From: Xanthobacteraceae bacterium
Lineage (GTDB): Bacteria > Pseudomonadota > Alphaproteobacteria > Rhizobiales > Xanthobacteraceae
DNA length: 64,000 nucleotides
NCBI GenBank assembly: GCA_004297465.1
Contig: SCUB01000011.1
Span: 1-64,000, forward strand
Direction: 5' to 3'
Shown piece after piece: positions 44,422 to 55,119 of this stretch. Made by a program: the position numbers and the translations under genes. The notes below the pieces were generated by a model, which worked only from the letters and a program-made list of their open reading frames with translations, had not been told where the DNA came from and made no database searches. Position 1 is the first letter of the stretch. Every line of letters starts with the position of its first letter.

Positions 44422-44751
44422 GCTGCATGCAGCGTCGGTGCTGCGTGGGATTTGGTCTTAGCCATCCGACATAACACGTCCGGCGGCGCGGATGCGTGAT
44501 CGCTCTAATGCGCCACGTCAGGTCCGTCTCTGACCGCACGCGCAGTGAGTCGCGCGCCGACATTCAATTCGCGCCCGCGAAGTTTGCGTTGCAACAACGA
44601 CTCGCGCGCTAATCACTGACTTCGATCAATCAAAACAAACAGACTTGTGACTTCAGCGCAGCAGTTGCGGTTGAACTCGTGCGGTTTCTGTGAGGATGCG
44701 GCGCGCGACGTTGTCTTTGCGCGGCAAAAATTGAAAACTCAAAAAAGCCGA

Positions 44752-44779
44752 TTGACAGATCGGAATACCATTTTAAGAT
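44752..44779 (+). promoter_or_regulatory. sigma-70 type promoter of the NO reductase operon
   Basis: TTGACA (44752-44757) and TAAGAT (44774-44779) are separated by 16 bp. It is the best promoter match in the 500-bp gap. The -10 is overlapped by the NsrR-like dyad. Confidence 0.65.
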
Positions 44780-44797
44780 GTATTTCAAATATATGTT
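44775..44797. promoter_or_regulatory. NsrR-like operator
   Basis: The left arm AAGATGTATTT, one central base, and the right arm AAATATATGTT match the 11-1-11 NsrR consensus (AAGATGYATTT N AAATRCATCTT) at 21 of 23 positions by my count. It overlaps the -10 box, as expected for repression relieved by NO. NsrR itself is not encoded in this window. Confidence 0.7.
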
Positions 44798-44921
44798 TAA
44801 ACTCTTTGACGGGCGCCACGTTTTGCGAGGTGGCAAACCGCGTGTGAGACGCGTCGGAAAATCCGACGCGTCCGGAAAACCGAGTTGGTCTTCGCGCGGC
44901 AAGACCGCGAATTTCTAGGGC

Positions 44922-45470
44922 ATGAACATTAAGTTCAACAGGGGAAGAGGGATGCAACAACACACGATACTTCTTGTCACCATCATCATCATGGCGTGCG
45001 TCGCCTTGCCGTTTCTCTTTGCCGCGTCCGCAGCAAAGGATAAGGGACCGCAGGTCGGCTGGCTCGGTTACGGTGCGCAACGATCCCTGGTCGCTGCGAT
45101 GCTGGTCGTGGGCGTCGCCGTCACGGGAATATCCCTCGCGGTGTGGCCGCATAGCGTTTCCGCGGGACCGGCGCGCCAGGTGGTCAATGTCACCGGCCAT
45201 CAATGGTACTGGGAGATCGAGGACGTTCGGTTGGTGACCGGAAGTCCGGTCGTATTCAATGTTCATACCGAGGACGTCAATCATGGCCTGGGCGTTTATG
45301 ACGCCGATTTCCGGTTGATTGTCCAGATCCAGGCGATGCCCGGATATCTCAACCAGGTTCAATACACGTTCGAGAAGCCGGGCAAGTACAGGATTCTTTG
45401 CATGGAATTTTGCGGCGTCGCCCATCACGACATGACATCTGAATTCACCGTATCGGCGGCCAAGAGCTGA
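44922..45470 (+). CDS. haem-copper reductase subunit II with CuA centre
   Basis: This is a 182-residue membrane-anchored subunit with two N-terminal hydrophobic segments (about 12-35 and 54-76) and a cupredoxin domain. The complete CuA ligand set is present: H121, C160, E162, C164, H168/H169 and M171 (CMEFCGVAHHDM). CuA takes electrons from cytochrome c. The start at 44922 gives a short basic leader; an ATG at 44952 is an alternative. The gene order here (subunit II, subunit I, SCO, membrane protein) resembles the norSY-senC-orf1 cluster known from ammonia oxidisers, so it is read as part of an sNOR-type NO reductase. Confidence 0.85.
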   Translation: MNIKFNRGRGMQQHTILLVTIIIMACVALPFLFAASAAKDKGPQVGWLGYGAQRSLVAAMLVVGVAVTGISLAVWPHSVSAGPARQVVNVTGHQWYWEIEDVRLVTGSPVVFNVHTEDVNHGLGVYDADFRLIVQIQAMPGYLNQVQYTFEKPGKYRILCMEFCGVAHHDMTSEFTVSAAKS

Positions 45471-45482
45471 GGGAGCATAGTG

Positions 45483-46937
45483 ATGGCAAATGTTGCGACG
45501 ACCAATAACCAGTCGAAAGAAGCAGATGCGTTATCCAGCGTGGCGCTCCTGCTGGCCGGCGCGGTATTCCTCCTGATGATGATTGCCGGCCTGCTCATGC
45601 GCAGCGCGCAGGGCAAGTTGATCGATCTCGATCCGACCCTGTTCTATCAGCTCATGACCGCGCACGGGGCCGGAATGGTCGGCGCTGCCGCGCTGTCCGG
45701 CGCCGCCATCATGTGGCTCTTTCTTGGCCGGCATGTCTCGCTTAACAAATTGGCGTTCAAGGCTTTCCTGGCCTTGTTCCTGCTCGGCGTCGTGTTGATC
45801 CTCTACTCGATCTTCGTCGGCGGTTTCGGAGGCGGATGGACGTTCCTCTATCCTCTCCCGGCTCATTCCGGCGGCGTCTGGGAGACCGCGGCGGCGGCGA
45901 CATTCCTCGTCGGGTTGCTGCTGGTCGGCGCCGGATTCCTGGTCCTTTACTTCGAAATGGGACGTGCGATCCTCGTACGGTATGGAAACCTTTCCCAGGC
46001 GTTGGCCTGGCCGCTGGTTTTCCGCGGCAAGATGGAAACGGTACCTCCTCCCACGATCGTGGCCTCCACTGTCATCGTGATCTTCAATTCAGTCGGTACG
46101 GTCGTTGGGGCCGCGACGCTTGCCATCAGCCTCATCAATCTTTTCGTTCCGACGTTCGAGATCGACGCCCTGCTGGCGAAGAACATGATCTATTTCTTCG
46201 GCCATGTTTTCATCAACGCATCGATCTATATGGCGGTGATCGGCGTTTATGAGATCCTTCCGGAATACACTGGCCGGCCATGGAAAGTATCCCGCCCGTT
46301 CGCGATCGGCTGGAGCGCGGTTCTGCTTTTTGTCCTGGCGGTCTATCCCCATCATCTTCTGCAGGACATGGTCATGCCGCCCTGGATGCTGGTCATGGGG
46401 CAGGTCGTGTCGTACCTGAGCGGGCTTCCCATTCTGGCCGTCACCGCGTTTGCCATGCTTGGCTATGTTAGCGGCTCCGGCATGAAATGGGATCTTGCAT
46501 CCGCGCTTCTCTTCCTGGGCGTGTTCGGCTGGTCGGTCGGCGTCGTCCCCGCCATCATCGACGGGATCATTTCGATCAACAAGGTGATGCACAATACCCT
46601 GTGGGTGCCCGGCCATTTTCATACGTACTTGCTGGTCGGTGAGGTCGCGATGTCATTCGGCGTCATGGCCTGGATTGTGCGCTCGAAGCAGGATGTTGCG
46701 TTGTTCAGCGGCCTGCAGCGCGCAGTATTCTGGACCTACGTCGTGGGGGCCCTGGGATTCGCGATGGTCTTCCTGACTTCCGGCGCCGCGAGCGTGCCGC
46801 GTCGTTGGGCCGTGCATGCTCCCGAATGGATCATGCAGGACCGCATCGCGACACTGCTCGGCATCGTCACGCTCCTGAGCGCGGTGTATTTCGTGACGCG
46901 CTTCGGCTCGCGGCTGGCCAGCGGAGAGCGGAAATGA
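45483..46937 (+). CDS. haem-copper subunit I, probable sNOR-type nitric oxide reductase
   Basis: This is a 484-residue protein with about twelve membrane helices. Metal ligands are conserved: H61 and H380 for the low-spin haem, H241, H290 and H291 for CuB, and H378 for the active-site haem (GHFHTY). In oxygen reductases of the B type the residue four after the first CuB histidine is the cross-linked tyrosine (GHPIVY). Here the sequence is GHVFIN, with Asn245; NO reductases carry Glu or other residues at this place, and I recall Asn for sNOR-type enzymes. The reaction would be 2 NO to N2O. The ATG at 45483 follows GAGGGAG. A microaerobic oxidase remains possible. Confidence 0.8.
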   Translation: MANVATTNNQSKEADALSSVALLLAGAVFLLMMIAGLLMRSAQGKLIDLDPTLFYQLMTAHGAGMVGAAALSGAAIMWLFLGRHVSLNKLAFKAFLALFLLGVVLILYSIFVGGFGGGWTFLYPLPAHSGGVWETAAAATFLVGLLLVGAGFLVLYFEMGRAILVRYGNLSQALAWPLVFRGKMETVPPPTIVASTVIVIFNSVGTVVGAATLAISLINLFVPTFEIDALLAKNMIYFFGHVFINASIYMAVIGVYEILPEYTGRPWKVSRPFAIGWSAVLLFVLAVYPHHLLQDMVMPPWMLVMGQVVSYLSGLPILAVTAFAMLGYVSGSGMKWDLASALLFLGVFGWSVGVVPAIIDGIISINKVMHNTLWVPGHFHTYLLVGEVAMSFGVMAWIVRSKQDVALFSGLQRAVFWTYVVGALGFAMVFLTSGAASVPRRWAVHAPEWIMQDRIATLLGIVTLLSAVYFVTRFGSRLASGERK

Positions 46938-47560
46938 ACTTGAAGGGCAAAGCGTTGCTTGCAGCCTGCGCTGTCAGCATCGCTGGCCTCTCGGCGTTAT
47001 GGCTCGCAACCGACGGCGGCCGCGCACTGACATCAGAAAGTGCGCGGCGGCTGCGGGCCCTGGCTGCAACCGGGGCCGTGCCGCCATCGGTCCTGGAGGA
47101 TTCCCGCGGCCGGGAAATCTTGCTGCGTTCCCGGGCTGATGTCGTGACGCTTGTGGAGTTCATCTACACAACCTGCCCCACGGTATGCCAGTCGGCGGGC
47201 GATGCGTTCTTCAAGGTGCGGTCCCGGGTTCTGCAGACACCGAAGCTCGCCCAGTCGGTACGAATGCTGAGTATCAGTTTTGACGTTGAGAAAGACGGGC
47301 CGGATCGACTCGACGACTACGCGCGCGGCCACGAAGCCGACGGGCAGATGTGGAAGGTCGTCCGCGCAAGGCGGGACGGACTTCCAGGCCTGCTCGATGC
47401 TTTCGGTGTCGTCGTCATACCCAACCCGGCATACGGATACACGCATAATGCGGCAATTCATGTCGTGCGGCAGGACGGCCATCTCGCCGGCATCTACGAT
47501 CTTGAGGACATCGATGGGGTGATGGCAAACGTCCGCAATCTGGTGGGCCCGGCGACATGA
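46934..47560 (+). CDS. SCO/SenC copper chaperone
   Basis: This 208-residue thioredoxin-fold protein is anchored by an N-terminal segment (ALLAACAVSIAGLSALWLA). It has the copper-binding TCPTVCQSA motif (CxxxC) near residue 79 and a conserved histidine in TDTHNAAIHVVR-like sequence near 175 (written here as YTHNAAIHVV). SCO proteins load the CuA site of haem-copper enzymes. The start overlaps the subunit I stop (ATGA), so it is made in step with its client. The senC position third in the cluster fits norSY-senC-orf1. Confidence 0.9.
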   Translation: MNLKGKALLAACAVSIAGLSALWLATDGGRALTSESARRLRALAATGAVPPSVLEDSRGREILLRSRADVVTLVEFIYTTCPTVCQSAGDAFFKVRSRVLQTPKLAQSVRMLSISFDVEKDGPDRLDDYARGHEADGQMWKVVRARRDGLPGLLDAFGVVVIPNPAYGYTHNAAIHVVRQDGHLAGIYDLEDIDGVMANVRNLVGPAT

Positions 47561-48177
47561 TATCACGCATCATGACATTGCATCGTCCGTGGATGACGGC
47601 CCTTCTCATTGTCATGCTTTGCTTCGTCTTCCGCGGGATGCTGGAGAGGCATCCGGTAACCCACATTGTCGTCCAGCTGTCCGCATTGGTGGTGGCCGGG
47701 TGGTTGGCAGGTCAGTCGCTCGGGGGTGCGTTGCCGGCACTTCGCCTGACGGACTGGAATGCCGGAGGTTCGGTAGGAATCCTCGTGGCATTGTTCGCGG
47801 GTGCGTTCTGGATGCTTCCCCGAAACATCGATTGGGCGCTCGGCCAGACTTCCGGTGAATTCGCGAAATTCGTTTCCATTCCCCTGTTGATGGGTGTTTC
47901 TCTTGCCCTGAGCTGGAGTCGCGCGCCGGCTCTGGCGAAATGCCTCATCAAGGCCAATGCGGTTTCGATGCTTCTAAGCTTGTCGTGGGTTTACACGACG
48001 GCGCCGGAGCGTCTTTGCAACAACTATCTCCTGGGACAGCAACAAGAGCTGGGCTCGGTCCTGCTTTGGCTTGCAATTGTGATCAGCGTGATCTGGAGCG
48101 TTCCACTTTTCGTGTCGCAGCCGCTCGCAAAACATCGCCCCGCAAACATACAGACGGCACGAGGAGTCAGTACATGA
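47557..48177 (+). CDS. polytopic membrane protein of NO reductase cluster (orf1-like)
   Basis: The 206-residue protein has about six hydrophobic helices. It shows a short cysteine/histidine pattern (HRPWMTALLIVM, ERHPVTHIVVQLSALVVAGW, TTAPERLCNNYLLGQQQELG) but no named domain that I recognise. It overlaps the SCO gene at ATGA and the channel gene at ATGA. Its position after the SCO gene corresponds to the orf1 of norSY-senC-orf1 clusters, and a role in assembly or copper delivery, as for CtaG-like membrane proteins, is a reasonable guess. The function is not established here. Confidence 0.65.
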   Translation: MISRIMTLHRPWMTALLIVMLCFVFRGMLERHPVTHIVVQLSALVVAGWLAGQSLGGALPALRLTDWNAGGSVGILVALFAGAFWMLPRNIDWALGQTSGEFAKFVSIPLLMGVSLALSWSRAPALAKCLIKANAVSMLLSLSWVYTTAPERLCNNYLLGQQQELGSVLLWLAIVISVIWSVPLFVSQPLAKHRPANIQTARGVST

Positions 48178-48968
48178 AAACAGTATCGGAAACGGTGGCC
48201 TACTTTGCAGCTCAGGCTCGAAGCAAGGCGGACACCAACGCCCGCAATCCGGTGGCGTTCTTCATCTCGTCAATGATGGCGGGCGCCTATGTAGGGGTTG
48301 GAATCCTGCTGATCCTCAGCGTGGGGCAGGCCATCGATCCATCGCTCCGAAGCCTGGTCATGGGCGCGAGCTTCGGTATTGCGCTGACGCTGGTTATTTT
48401 CGCCGGAGCCGAACTGTTCACTGGCTATGCGATGTATATGACGCTGGGAAGCCTGACCGGTCAGACAACTCTTGCGGAGCTTGTCCGCGGCTGGTTGAGC
48501 ACGTGGATTGGAAACTTCGCCGGCGCCGCCGTTCTTGCCGTCCTGTTCATTGCAGGTGGCGGCGGGCATGTGCTCGAGCATGGCGCGAGCCTGGTCTACG
48601 ACATCGCGGCCTATAAGACGGCGTCGTCCCCGATCGCACTCGTAAGCCGCGGGATGCTTTGTAACTGGCTGGTCTGCCTGTCGATCTGGACGTCCGCGAG
48701 AACGGACAGCGATAGCGCCAAGTGCATTCTGATCTTCTGGTGTCTGTTTGCGTTCATTGCCTGCGGCTTCGAGCACAGCGTCGCCAACATGACCATCTTC
48801 CTCGTTGTGCTTCTTTCAGGGGCGCCGGAGAGCATCTCGCCCGCAGCGGCGGCATACAATCTCTTTTGGGTCACGATCGGGAATATCCTGAGCGGCGTGA
48901 TATTCGTCGGTGCGGGCTACTGGGCCATCGGCAAGCCGCTCGTGCGCAAAGAGCCGGTTTCGGCTTGA
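48174..48968 (+). CDS. formate/nitrite transporter family channel
   Basis: This is a 264-residue membrane protein of the FNT family: six helices, with AGAYVGVGILLILSVGQA near residue 33, FAGAELFTGYAMYMTLG near 78, NFAGAAVLAVLFIAGGGG near 111, and CGFEHSVANM near 200 with the central histidine. FNT channels pass formate, nitrite or hydrosulfide. Coupling (ATGA overlap, SD GAGGAG) to the NO reductase genes argues for nitrite (NirC-like) rather than formate. It would remove or import nitrite as NO is formed and consumed. It is the last gene before a terminator. Confidence 0.87.
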   Translation: MKTVSETVAYFAAQARSKADTNARNPVAFFISSMMAGAYVGVGILLILSVGQAIDPSLRSLVMGASFGIALTLVIFAGAELFTGYAMYMTLGSLTGQTTLAELVRGWLSTWIGNFAGAAVLAVLFIAGGGGHVLEHGASLVYDIAAYKTASSPIALVSRGMLCNWLVCLSIWTSARTDSDSAKCILIFWCLFAFIACGFEHSVANMTIFLVVLLSGAPESISPAAAAYNLFWVTIGNILSGVIFVGAGYWAIGKPLVRKEPVSA

Positions 48969-52206: not shown

Positions 52207-52824
52207 GACACACACAGAGGTGCCCCCGAGAATTTGGTGCCGACCCCGGGTGCATGCTCCTTCAGGCAATCGTATTTTCCGCGAAGAAGCCATAGGAGGG
52301 CCGGGGCGGCGGCCATCCTGGCAGAGCTCCAGCTCCTTCGCCCTTTTGCGGTGACGTAATAAAGAGTGCCCGAAATAAAGAATAAAGAGCGCCCGAATAA
52401 AGGGCGCCTGAAGGCCGCCCCTGGCGGTCCCAATTCGCCTTGGACAGCAAAAACCGGCAAATAATACCTCCTAAAATTATTCTTCTTTATGACCTAACAT
52501 TGGCAATTTTTGCCACCAAGTCGCAATAACATAAAAATTATTTTCGCCAAGCGCCAAAATAGTTGTCCTGTATCAAGGAAACAGCATTTGCTGCAGGGCA
52601 GCATGACTTGACTTTGGTTGGGTCATCAACGCGCGCCAGTTCGCCTTCAGGGCGACCTCCGTTAGCAAACCCGATCAACATTTCGCACGGCTTTCGGGCC
52701 GGAACGCTGTGAGGCGGGCTCCGTCGGGGTGCGCCTCATGCCGCCTCGCTTGCTGTGCAGCCCAGGCACAGCCAGGGCGGTTTTCCGGTGCCGGATCTCC
52801 TGGGTGATGCAAGGGAGACTGACC
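52207..52824. other. 618-bp regulatory/intergenic region upstream of nosZ
   Basis: I see no gene. It contains short AT-rich tandem AATAAAG-type repeats (52360-52405), a perfect palindrome TGGCAATTTTTGCCA at 52501-52515, an Fnr-like site (52563-52576), and the nosZ leader. The middle part, 52470-52570, is the most AT-rich stretch of the region. Confidence 0.5.
52563..52576. promoter_or_regulatory. Fnr/Dnr-type box upstream of nosZ
   Basis: TTGTC-N4-ATCAA matches the Fnr consensus TTGAT-N4-ATCAA at 8 of 10 arm positions, about 250 bp before the nosZ start. Fnr/CRP-family regulators (Fnr, FixK, NnrR) normally switch on nos genes without oxygen. Confidence 0.5.
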
Positions 52825-55119
52825 ATGCGGTCACTATTCAGAGCCTCAGTCGCGGGGCTGGCTCTGGCCTCGGTCGCGGGAACCGCGGCCATCGCCGCCG
52901 AATCGCTGCAGGACGTCATGAAGCGGCGCAGCCTGACGGAGAAGGACCTCGTCAACGCCGCCAAGACCTATACGCCGACCGGCAAGCGCGACGAATTCAT
53001 TGTGTTCTCGTCGGGTGGCCAATCGGGGCAGGTCATCGTCTACGGTGTGCCGTCGATGCGCATCCTGAAATACATCGGCGTGTTCACTCCCGAACCCTGG
53101 CAGGGCTATGGCTTCGACGAGGAATCGAAAAAGGTTCTCGAGCAGGGCAAGGTCGACGGCCGCGAGATCCGCTGGGGCGACTCGCACCACCCGGCCATCA
53201 CCGAGACCAACGGCGAGGTCGACGGCGAGTATCTCTTCATCAACGACAAGTCGGCGCCGCGCATTGCCGTCATTTCGCTCAAGGACTTCGAGACCCAGCA
53301 GATCGTTGTCAACCCGATCATGCAATCGGAGCACGGCGGCGCATTCGTTACGCCGAACTCCGAGTATGTGATCGAGGCCGCCCAGTATCCGGGCGTGCTC
53401 GGCCGCGGCTATGCCCCGCTCTCGGAATTCAACGAGAAGTTCCGCGGCGCCGTGACCTACTGGAAATTCGACCGCGCCAGGGGCCGCATTGTTCCGGAGC
53501 AATCGTTCTCGATCGAGCTGCCGCCCTACAGCCAGGATCTTTCGGACGCCGGCAAGCTGGCGTCGGATGGCTATTCCTTCACTAACTCGTTCTGTGCCGA
53601 GCGCTATGTCGGCGGCATCGAGCGGGGCCGTCCGCCGTTCGAAGCGGGCTGCTCGCAGGCCGACGTCGACTATCTCCACGTCATCAACTGGAAGAAGGCG
53701 GAGCAAGTTTACAAGGCCGGCAAGGTGACGATGATCAACGATCATCCGGTCATCATGATGAAAACAGCGATCGAGGAAGGTCTCGTCGCGCTGGTGGCCG
53801 AACCGAAGTCGCCGCACGGCGTCGACGTTTCGCCCGACGGCAAGTTCATCGTCGTCGGCGGCAAGCTTGACACCCAGGCCTCGGTCTACTCGTTCGAGAA
53901 GATCAAGACGGCCATGGACGCCAAGAAATTCGTCTCCAAGGATCCCTACGGGATCCCGATCATCGACATCAAGGACGCCCTGCACAAGCAGGTTCCGCTC
54001 GGCCTCGGCCCGCTGCACTCGCAGTATGACTCGAAGCCCTGCATCGTCTACACCTCGCTGTATGTCGACAGCCAAGTGGTGAAGTGGGACTATTGCGAAG
54101 GCAAGGTGCTCGACAAGGTTTCGGTGCATTACAACATCGGCCACCTCGTGGCGATGGAAGGCGAGTCCACCAAGCCGAAGGGCAAGTACCTCATCGCCCT
54201 CAACAAGCTCGCCATTGACCGCTTCAACCCGGTCGGGCCGCTGCATCCGCAGAACCACCAGCTCATCGATATCTCCGGCGACAAGATGGAACTGGTGTAC
54301 GACATGCCGGTGCCGCTCGGCGAGCCGCACTATGCCACCGCGATTTCGGCCGACAAGCTGAAGCCGCTGGTGCGTTATGCCTACGGCACCGACAGCCGCA
54401 CCGGCATGGCGCATCCGCAGGCCGTGCGTCCCGGCTCGGAGAAGATCGTGCGTGAGCCGGGCAAGGTCACGGTGATGATGACCGCGATTCGCTCGCACTT
54501 CACGCCGGAAATCGTCGAGGTCGAGGAGGGCGATCAGGTCAACTTTGTCGTCACCAACTCGGAGCGTGCCGAGGACGAAACCCACGGCTTCGCGGTTTCG
54601 ACCTACAACGTCAACCTGTCGATCGAGCCCGGCAAGACGGCAACGGCGAGCTTCAAGGCCGACAAGCCCGGCGTGTTCTCATATTACTGCACCGAGTTCT
54701 GTTCGGCGCTGCATCTTGAGATGACCGGATTCCTGGTGGTCAAGCCGAAGGGCCTGGCGACGGCCTCCGCCGACGACTCCGTCAAGGCCGGTCAGACCTA
54801 CACCAGGACCGACTTCGACAAGCAGTACAAGACCTGCACCGACACCCAGGTGGTGATCGACAGCGTGGTCGGCTACATCGTGTCCACCAACTTCAAGGAC
54901 TTCAAGGACGTGGTGGCGCTGGTCGAAGACGCCACCGATCAGCTTAACTTCGCCAAGGACGCCCGCACCAAGGCGGACGAGGCGGCGAAGAAGCAGGATT
55001 GGCAGAACGCCACCCTGTGGGCCGGCCAGTGGTGGCAGTACCAGGTCAAGGCGGCCGACATTGGTCTGCGCGCCAAGACCTATCTGGAGCAGAACGGCGC
55101 CAAGATCTCCAAGAAGTAA
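52825..55119 (+). CDS. nosZ: nitrous-oxide reductase, clade II (Sec-exported)
   Basis: This is a 764-residue periplasmic enzyme reducing N2O to N2. The signal peptide (MRSLFRASVAGLALASVAG, cleavage after AIAA) has no twin-arginine, which marks clade II. It has a seven-bladed propeller with CuZ histidines (GDSHHPAITETNG near residue 119 and later His in SPHGVDV, GPLHSQYD, NIGHLVAMEGE), and a cupredoxin domain with the CuA motif (CTEFCSALHLEM near 625). About 110 extra residues follow, with one CxD pattern but no CxxCH haem site. The ATG at 52825 begins the signal peptide. Genes for two cytochromes c, NosB, D, G, H, F, L and Y follow. Confidence 0.96.
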   Translation: MRSLFRASVAGLALASVAGTAAIAAESLQDVMKRRSLTEKDLVNAAKTYTPTGKRDEFIVFSSGGQSGQVIVYGVPSMRILKYIGVFTPEPWQGYGFDEESKKVLEQGKVDGREIRWGDSHHPAITETNGEVDGEYLFINDKSAPRIAVISLKDFETQQIVVNPIMQSEHGGAFVTPNSEYVIEAAQYPGVLGRGYAPLSEFNEKFRGAVTYWKFDRARGRIVPEQSFSIELPPYSQDLSDAGKLASDGYSFTNSFCAERYVGGIERGRPPFEAGCSQADVDYLHVINWKKAEQVYKAGKVTMINDHPVIMMKTAIEEGLVALVAEPKSPHGVDVSPDGKFIVVGGKLDTQASVYSFEKIKTAMDAKKFVSKDPYGIPIIDIKDALHKQVPLGLGPLHSQYDSKPCIVYTSLYVDSQVVKWDYCEGKVLDKVSVHYNIGHLVAMEGESTKPKGKYLIALNKLAIDRFNPVGPLHPQNHQLIDISGDKMELVYDMPVPLGEPHYATAISADKLKPLVRYAYGTDSRTGMAHPQAVRPGSEKIVREPGKVTVMMTAIRSHFTPEIVEVEEGDQVNFVVTNSERAEDETHGFAVSTYNVNLSIEPGKTATASFKADKPGVFSYYCTEFCSALHLEMTGFLVVKPKGLATASADDSVKAGQTYTRTDFDKQYKTCTDTQVVIDSVVGYIVSTNFKDFKDVVALVEDATDQLNFAKDARTKADEAAKKQDWQNATLWAGQWWQYQVKAADIGLRAKTYLEQNGAKISKK

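Follow-up and report, generated by a model that had tools for sequence, protein, structure and literature searches.

Within the window (the whole 64-kb stretch of DNA that was analysed), a forward-strand operon comprised norS (44952-45470), encoding a CuA-type cupredoxin subunit II with an intact CxxxCxxxHxxM motif; norY (45480-46937), encoding a B-type heme-copper subunit I; senC (46934-47560), encoding a SCO1/SenC copper chaperone; orf1 (47557-48177), encoding the membrane protein conserved in the norSY-senC-orf1 cluster; and a gene of the formate/nitrite transporter family that is most similar to NirC (48174-48968). The open reading frame of norS opens at 44922; the start at 44952 was preferred, as AGGGGAAGAGGG precedes this ATG and the homologues align from there. 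The CuA site of NorS (CMEFCGVAHHDM) is that of an sNOR subunit II. On alignment with the ba3 oxidase of T. thermophilus, Asn246 of NorY falls at the tyrosine which is cross-linked to a CuB histidine in oxygen reductases, and Asn246 and the CuB and heme histidines (His242, His291-292, His379 and His381) were kept in 55 of 55 NorY homologues. According to the published signature, Asn at this position marks sNOR and Tyr marks oxygen reductases (PMC8756737 Table A4; PMC3475470). The order norS-norY-senC-orf1, present here, was kept in nearly all the loci examined. The first-pass annotation had read the operon as an NO reductase; by gene order and the active-site Asn signature this reading was borne out, and the predicted enzyme is of the sNOR type.

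The four-gene order, the CuA subunit II and the active-site Asn are shared with the sNOR of ammonia oxidizers, as described in the available parts of PMC4940428, PMC6967387 and PMC3772326; unlike those systems, the operon belongs to a denitrifier-like alphaproteobacterium, ends with an added NirC-like gene and has a predicted operator. About ten other sNOR loci have a NirC-like gene in the corresponding position, which suggests a link to nitrite.

A promoter consisting of a -35 element (TTGACA, 44752-44757) and a -10 element (TAAGAT, 44774-44779), separated by a 16-bp spacer and matching the promoter consensus at 10 of 12 bases, was found upstream of norS, where promoter-like sites on both strands numbered 2 against 0.2 expected. 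Overlapping it on the same strand was a predicted NsrR operator (44775-44797, AAGATGTATTTCAAATATATGTT), an 11-1-11 palindrome (AAGATGTATTT-C-AAATATATGTT) in which 9 of the 11 arm pairs are complementary. The operator sequence and coordinates of the first-pass annotation proved exact on re-reading of the window, as did its “21 of 23” consensus match when the free central base is counted; otherwise, 20 of the 22 defined positions match the extended NsrR consensus (AAGATGYATTTNAAATRCATCTT), with both mismatches in the right arm. The overlap with the -10 box of a good sigma-70 promoter, also claimed there, was confirmed, since 5 of the 6 bases of TAAGAT are common to the outer arm of the operator. 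The operator begins one base into the -10 box and reaches approximately +11 of a transcription start predicted from the -10 box near 44786, where the palindrome has its centre; this is the position expected for a repressor blocking the polymerase.

In 20,000 dinucleotide shuffles of the moeB-norS interval (530 bp, upstream of norS), 19 or 20 matches were never reached, and 18 were reached once. With up to 3 mismatches to the 23-bp NsrR pattern allowed, the operator was the sole place in the 64-kb window (0.00 expected from 100 window shuffles) and one of two places in the genome (3.12 Mb, 99.99% complete), both genome scans being pattern matching; the same pattern read backwards had no genome match within 3 mismatches. 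The other place (C12:118403-118425, or L009:6403-6425) lies ~55 bp before a gene for a TonB-dependent receptor and is possibly a second NsrR target; ExbB-ExbD-TonB-like genes precede the receptor gene, and a NitT/SsuA-like ABC transporter comes after it. The shorter core gATGyAT-N5-ATrCATc (14 positions, PMC1274295) is too weak to single out the operator, because the score of 12/14 that the operator reaches recurs at 13 genome places, the operator included. What singles the operator out is therefore not the core alone but its full 23-bp form, its place on the promoter and the comparison with other loci.

The first-pass annotation had made its proposal depend on the presence of NsrR in the genome. 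This was checked, and an nsrR gene was found at G000:C27:226455-226934, encoding a protein of 160 aa with an Rrf2 fold (PF02082, E 4e-38), three cysteines spaced as C-X7-C-X5-C, and both Asp8 and Arg12 (MRLTVYTDYSLR). In Streptomyces coelicolor NsrR, the three cysteines, Asp8 and Arg12 hold the cluster and transmit its state, with Asp8 acting as the fourth ligand (PMC5411485). The protein was 44% identical to E. coli NsrR, and its best PDB match was S. coelicolor NsrR (5n07). Of six Rrf2-like matches in the genome, one was merely an IclR protein in the window, and among the genome's five Rrf2 proteins only the C27 regulator had the NsrR ligand set. Its score with the NCBIfam NsrR model (135 bits) was below the cut-off of 182, and that with the RirA model (142 bits), slightly higher, was below the cut-off of 193. 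Since the NsrR score was below the cut-off of a model which we read as enterobacterial, the protein was classified as NsrR-type and not as a member of the NCBIfam equivalog.

As both scores fell short of their cut-offs, the protein was compared with the RirA-type proteins of the host's order. All 22 that were readable had Asn8, and most had a recognition helix of the FLFK/HLFK type; 20 of the 22 formed a supported clade (98/91), outside of which the C27 regulator fell, at a position that the tree did not resolve exactly. The sNOR-linked NsrR-type regulators all had Asp8, except one with Glu, and the recognition helix of the C27 regulator (SKNHLMK) is that of NsrR proteins linked to sNOR. The RirA identity suggested by the model scores was rejected on account of Asp8 versus Asn8 and the tree. 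Here nsrR lies apart from the sNOR operon, a few kilobases from nosR.

Conservation was examined in ~46 non-duplicate sNOR loci, 39 of which had enough upstream sequence for the best NsrR-pattern match within 300 bp of norS to be compared with shuffles of the same region. A significant NsrR-type palindrome was present in 22 of the 39 upstream regions at P<0.05 and in 18 at P<0.01, in loci spanning several families and classes; Fisher's combined P (~1e-26) ignores the relatedness of the loci and so overstates their independence. The top scores were 21/22, against 15/22 at most for the reversed pattern. Approximately 17 of the 39 regions had no significant NsrR-type site, which means that NsrR control does not extend to all sNOR operons. 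Three loci of Terasakiella and Magnetospirillum type (L033, L036 and L040), initially scored as lacking a site, had a weaker palindrome (like AACATGCATACGCCATGCATCTA), located ~360-370 bp before norS and perhaps preceding an additional first gene.

In 21 of the ~46 loci, an NsrR-type gene was located no more than 5 kb from the operon (<1% expected by random placement, assuming one to three such genes per 3-5 Mb genome), and 8 of these 21 genes were divergent, with an intergenic operator common to them and norS. Of 20 representative loci, 12 had TTGAC(A) 23-26 bp ahead of the operator (0.4 expected, P ~2e-16), and in the group resembling the window the -10 element was TAAGAT, TAACAT or TAATAT, that is, one T followed by the AA[G/C/T]AT of the operator. 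This conserved spacing indicates that the overlap of operator and -10 box is a conserved design and not an accident of the promoter in the window. The two closest relatives (L011 and L012) had two operators each, one near -40 and the other at -162 or -249 from norS; unlike them, the window has only the distal type.

Taken as a whole, the 23-bp palindrome is very probably the operator by which NsrR controls the norSY-senC-orf1-nirC-like operon. NsrR is an Rrf2-family repressor with an iron-sulfur cluster; without NO, its dimer would lie across the -10 box and the start site and block RNA polymerase. Nitric oxide, here presumably supplied by the NirS-type nitrite reductase, would nitrosylate the cluster, NsrR would be released and the operon transcribed. 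NO may thus induce its own reductase, with sNOR converting NO to N2O and NosZ then consuming the N2O. In agreement with these steps, NirS-type proteins were encoded in the genome (a search for Cu-type NirK gave no match over the cut-off), and nosZ, of the Sec-type clade II, was found in the window itself (52822-55119), ~4 kb beyond the sNOR operon on its downstream side, with cytochrome c and nosD genes after it; nosR lies near nsrR, on a different contig. A second unusual heme-copper protein (L105, G000:C7:356472-357770) had the motif GHSTQQ; Gln at the tyrosine position is the signature published for eNOR. An Rrf2-like gene that lacks the cysteine set is located ~6 kb from L105. By sequence, aa3 and cbb3 oxidases were also encoded.

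Several other explanations were weighed. That the palindrome arose by chance in an AT-rich promoter is hardly credible: the 14-position core does match at only 12 positions and at 13 genome places, but the full-length score was never obtained in 20,000 shuffles, and distant relatives keep the site, the spacing and a linked regulator. The site might instead be a true Rrf2-family operator read by RirA or IscR, so that the operon would answer to iron or Fe-S status and not to NO; Rrf2 operators are alike, and the C27 regulator gave a slightly higher score with the RirA model than with that for NsrR, neither score reaching its cut-off. We consider this very unlikely, given that the palindrome belongs to the E. 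coli NsrR type, that Asp8, the SKNHLMK helix and the tree separate the regulator from the RirA-type proteins, and that the other four Rrf2 proteins of the genome lack the ligand set. Somewhat less remote, though still improbable, is that a CRP/FNR-type NO regulator (NnrR) exerts the main control and NsrR contributes little. In many alphaproteobacteria the nor genes are under NnrR (PMC1274295), and boxes resembling TTGCG-N4-CGCAA occur at 44584-44597 and 44823-44836 (2 and 1 mismatches, respectively); such boxes are, however, rarer in the window than chance predicts (45 found, 66 expected), and one of the two lies ~155-170 bp upstream of the -35 element and the other downstream of the predicted start. 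NnrR may nevertheless add to the control.

NsrR control could also be retained with a different role for the enzyme, if the operon encoded a high-affinity oxygen reductase which merely replaces NO-inhibited oxidases. Such a function has been proposed for the sNOR of Nitrosomonas europaea, which is induced under O2 limitation, and the question of NO versus O2 as the substrate of sNOR is described as unsettled, with only indirect evidence for NO reductase activity (all in the available part of PMC6967387). For the operon in the window we regard this as unlikely, to about the same degree as the NnrR explanation: 55 of 55 homologues have Asn where O2 reductases have the cross-linked Tyr, putative control is by an NO sensor, and NirS, eNOR-type and NosZ proteins are encoded in the genome. 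An NO-reducing sNOR under NsrR control is the preferred reading. Predicted control by an NO sensor, kept in different lineages along with the Asn active site, constitutes independent evidence for NO reduction by sNOR. KEGG labels sNOR as cytochrome c oxidase (PMC11388526). Predicted NsrR control may serve as a genomic marker to distinguish sNOR from oxidases, a distinction that matters when N2O production is estimated.

The NsrR regulon of gamma- and beta-proteobacteria includes hmp, ytfE and hcp in E. coli, norB in Neisseria and Burkholderia, and nirK in Nitrosomonas (Rodionov et al. 2005, PMC1274295). The system described here resembles it in the gATGyAT-N5-ATrCATc palindrome, the three-Cys Rrf2 repressor and the NO-metabolism targets, and differs in that the target is sNOR (norSY), not mentioned in that work, that the host is alphaproteobacterial, and that the flanking AA...TT and the -10 overlap are part of the conserved unit; the operator in the window has this 23-bp 11-1-11 layout, with AA...TT ends and overlapping the promoter. 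A single nsrR was found in alphaproteobacteria by Rodionov et al. 2005 (PMC1274295), and later work dealt with NsrR in Magnetospirillum (PMC11014258); the present finding would extend NsrR to alphaproteobacterial denitrifiers. With S. coelicolor NsrR and its target hmpA1 (PMC5411485, PMC9338935) the system shares the 23-bp 11-1-11 operator, Asp8, the three cysteines, and the His and Lys of the recognition helix, whereas the half-site is AACACGAAT in hmpA1 versus AAGATGTAT here, and the helix is PYTHAAK there versus SKNHLMK here.

Different recognition helices in the linked regulators were accompanied by different half-sites: AA[G/C]ATGYAT for SKNHLMK or SRNHLVK, mostly AAyACGYAT for SFDHIAK or PFNHLAK, AA[C/G]ATCGAT for PEGHVRK and AACATACAT for SKYHVRT. 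This correspondence is a lead, as the groups are few and two loci (L022 and L070) do not fit; a strict one-residue recognition code (Met/Val for ATG, Ala for ACG), which these two break, was not adopted. On balance, we lean slightly towards NsrR and sNOR forming a conserved and previously unreported regulatory unit shared by many Proteobacteria, with the outer arm of the operator serving also as the -10 box (TTGAC-16/18-TAA[G/C]AT) and the half-site following the recognition helix. If so, several natural specificity classes of NsrR exist, and NO would be argued to be the native substrate of sNOR.

NsrR itself is known; in the open-access literature, we found no report of NsrR controlling sNOR and no description of an operator in work on the two together, and the promoter-operator layout conserved with sNOR was not anticipated. 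In the available parts of the ammonia-oxidizer sNOR papers (PMC4940428, PMC6967387, PMC3772326) no operator description was found; the available part of PMC3772326 places a gene labelled NsrR two loci from sNOR in Nitrosococcus oceani (Noc2967 versus Noc2969-2971).

The predicted 5' leader of norS, placed from the -10 box (44786-44951), is ~165 nt long, exceeding that of most relatives, and folds better than its shuffles (z -2.2); an Rfam search of the leader gave nothing above threshold. It contains a perfect GC-rich hairpin at 44849-44871 (ACGCGTCGGAAAATCCGACGCGT), with 10 complementary arm pairs and no T run. A similar hairpin (CCGGAAAATCCGG) was present in locus L019, 174 bp before its norS.
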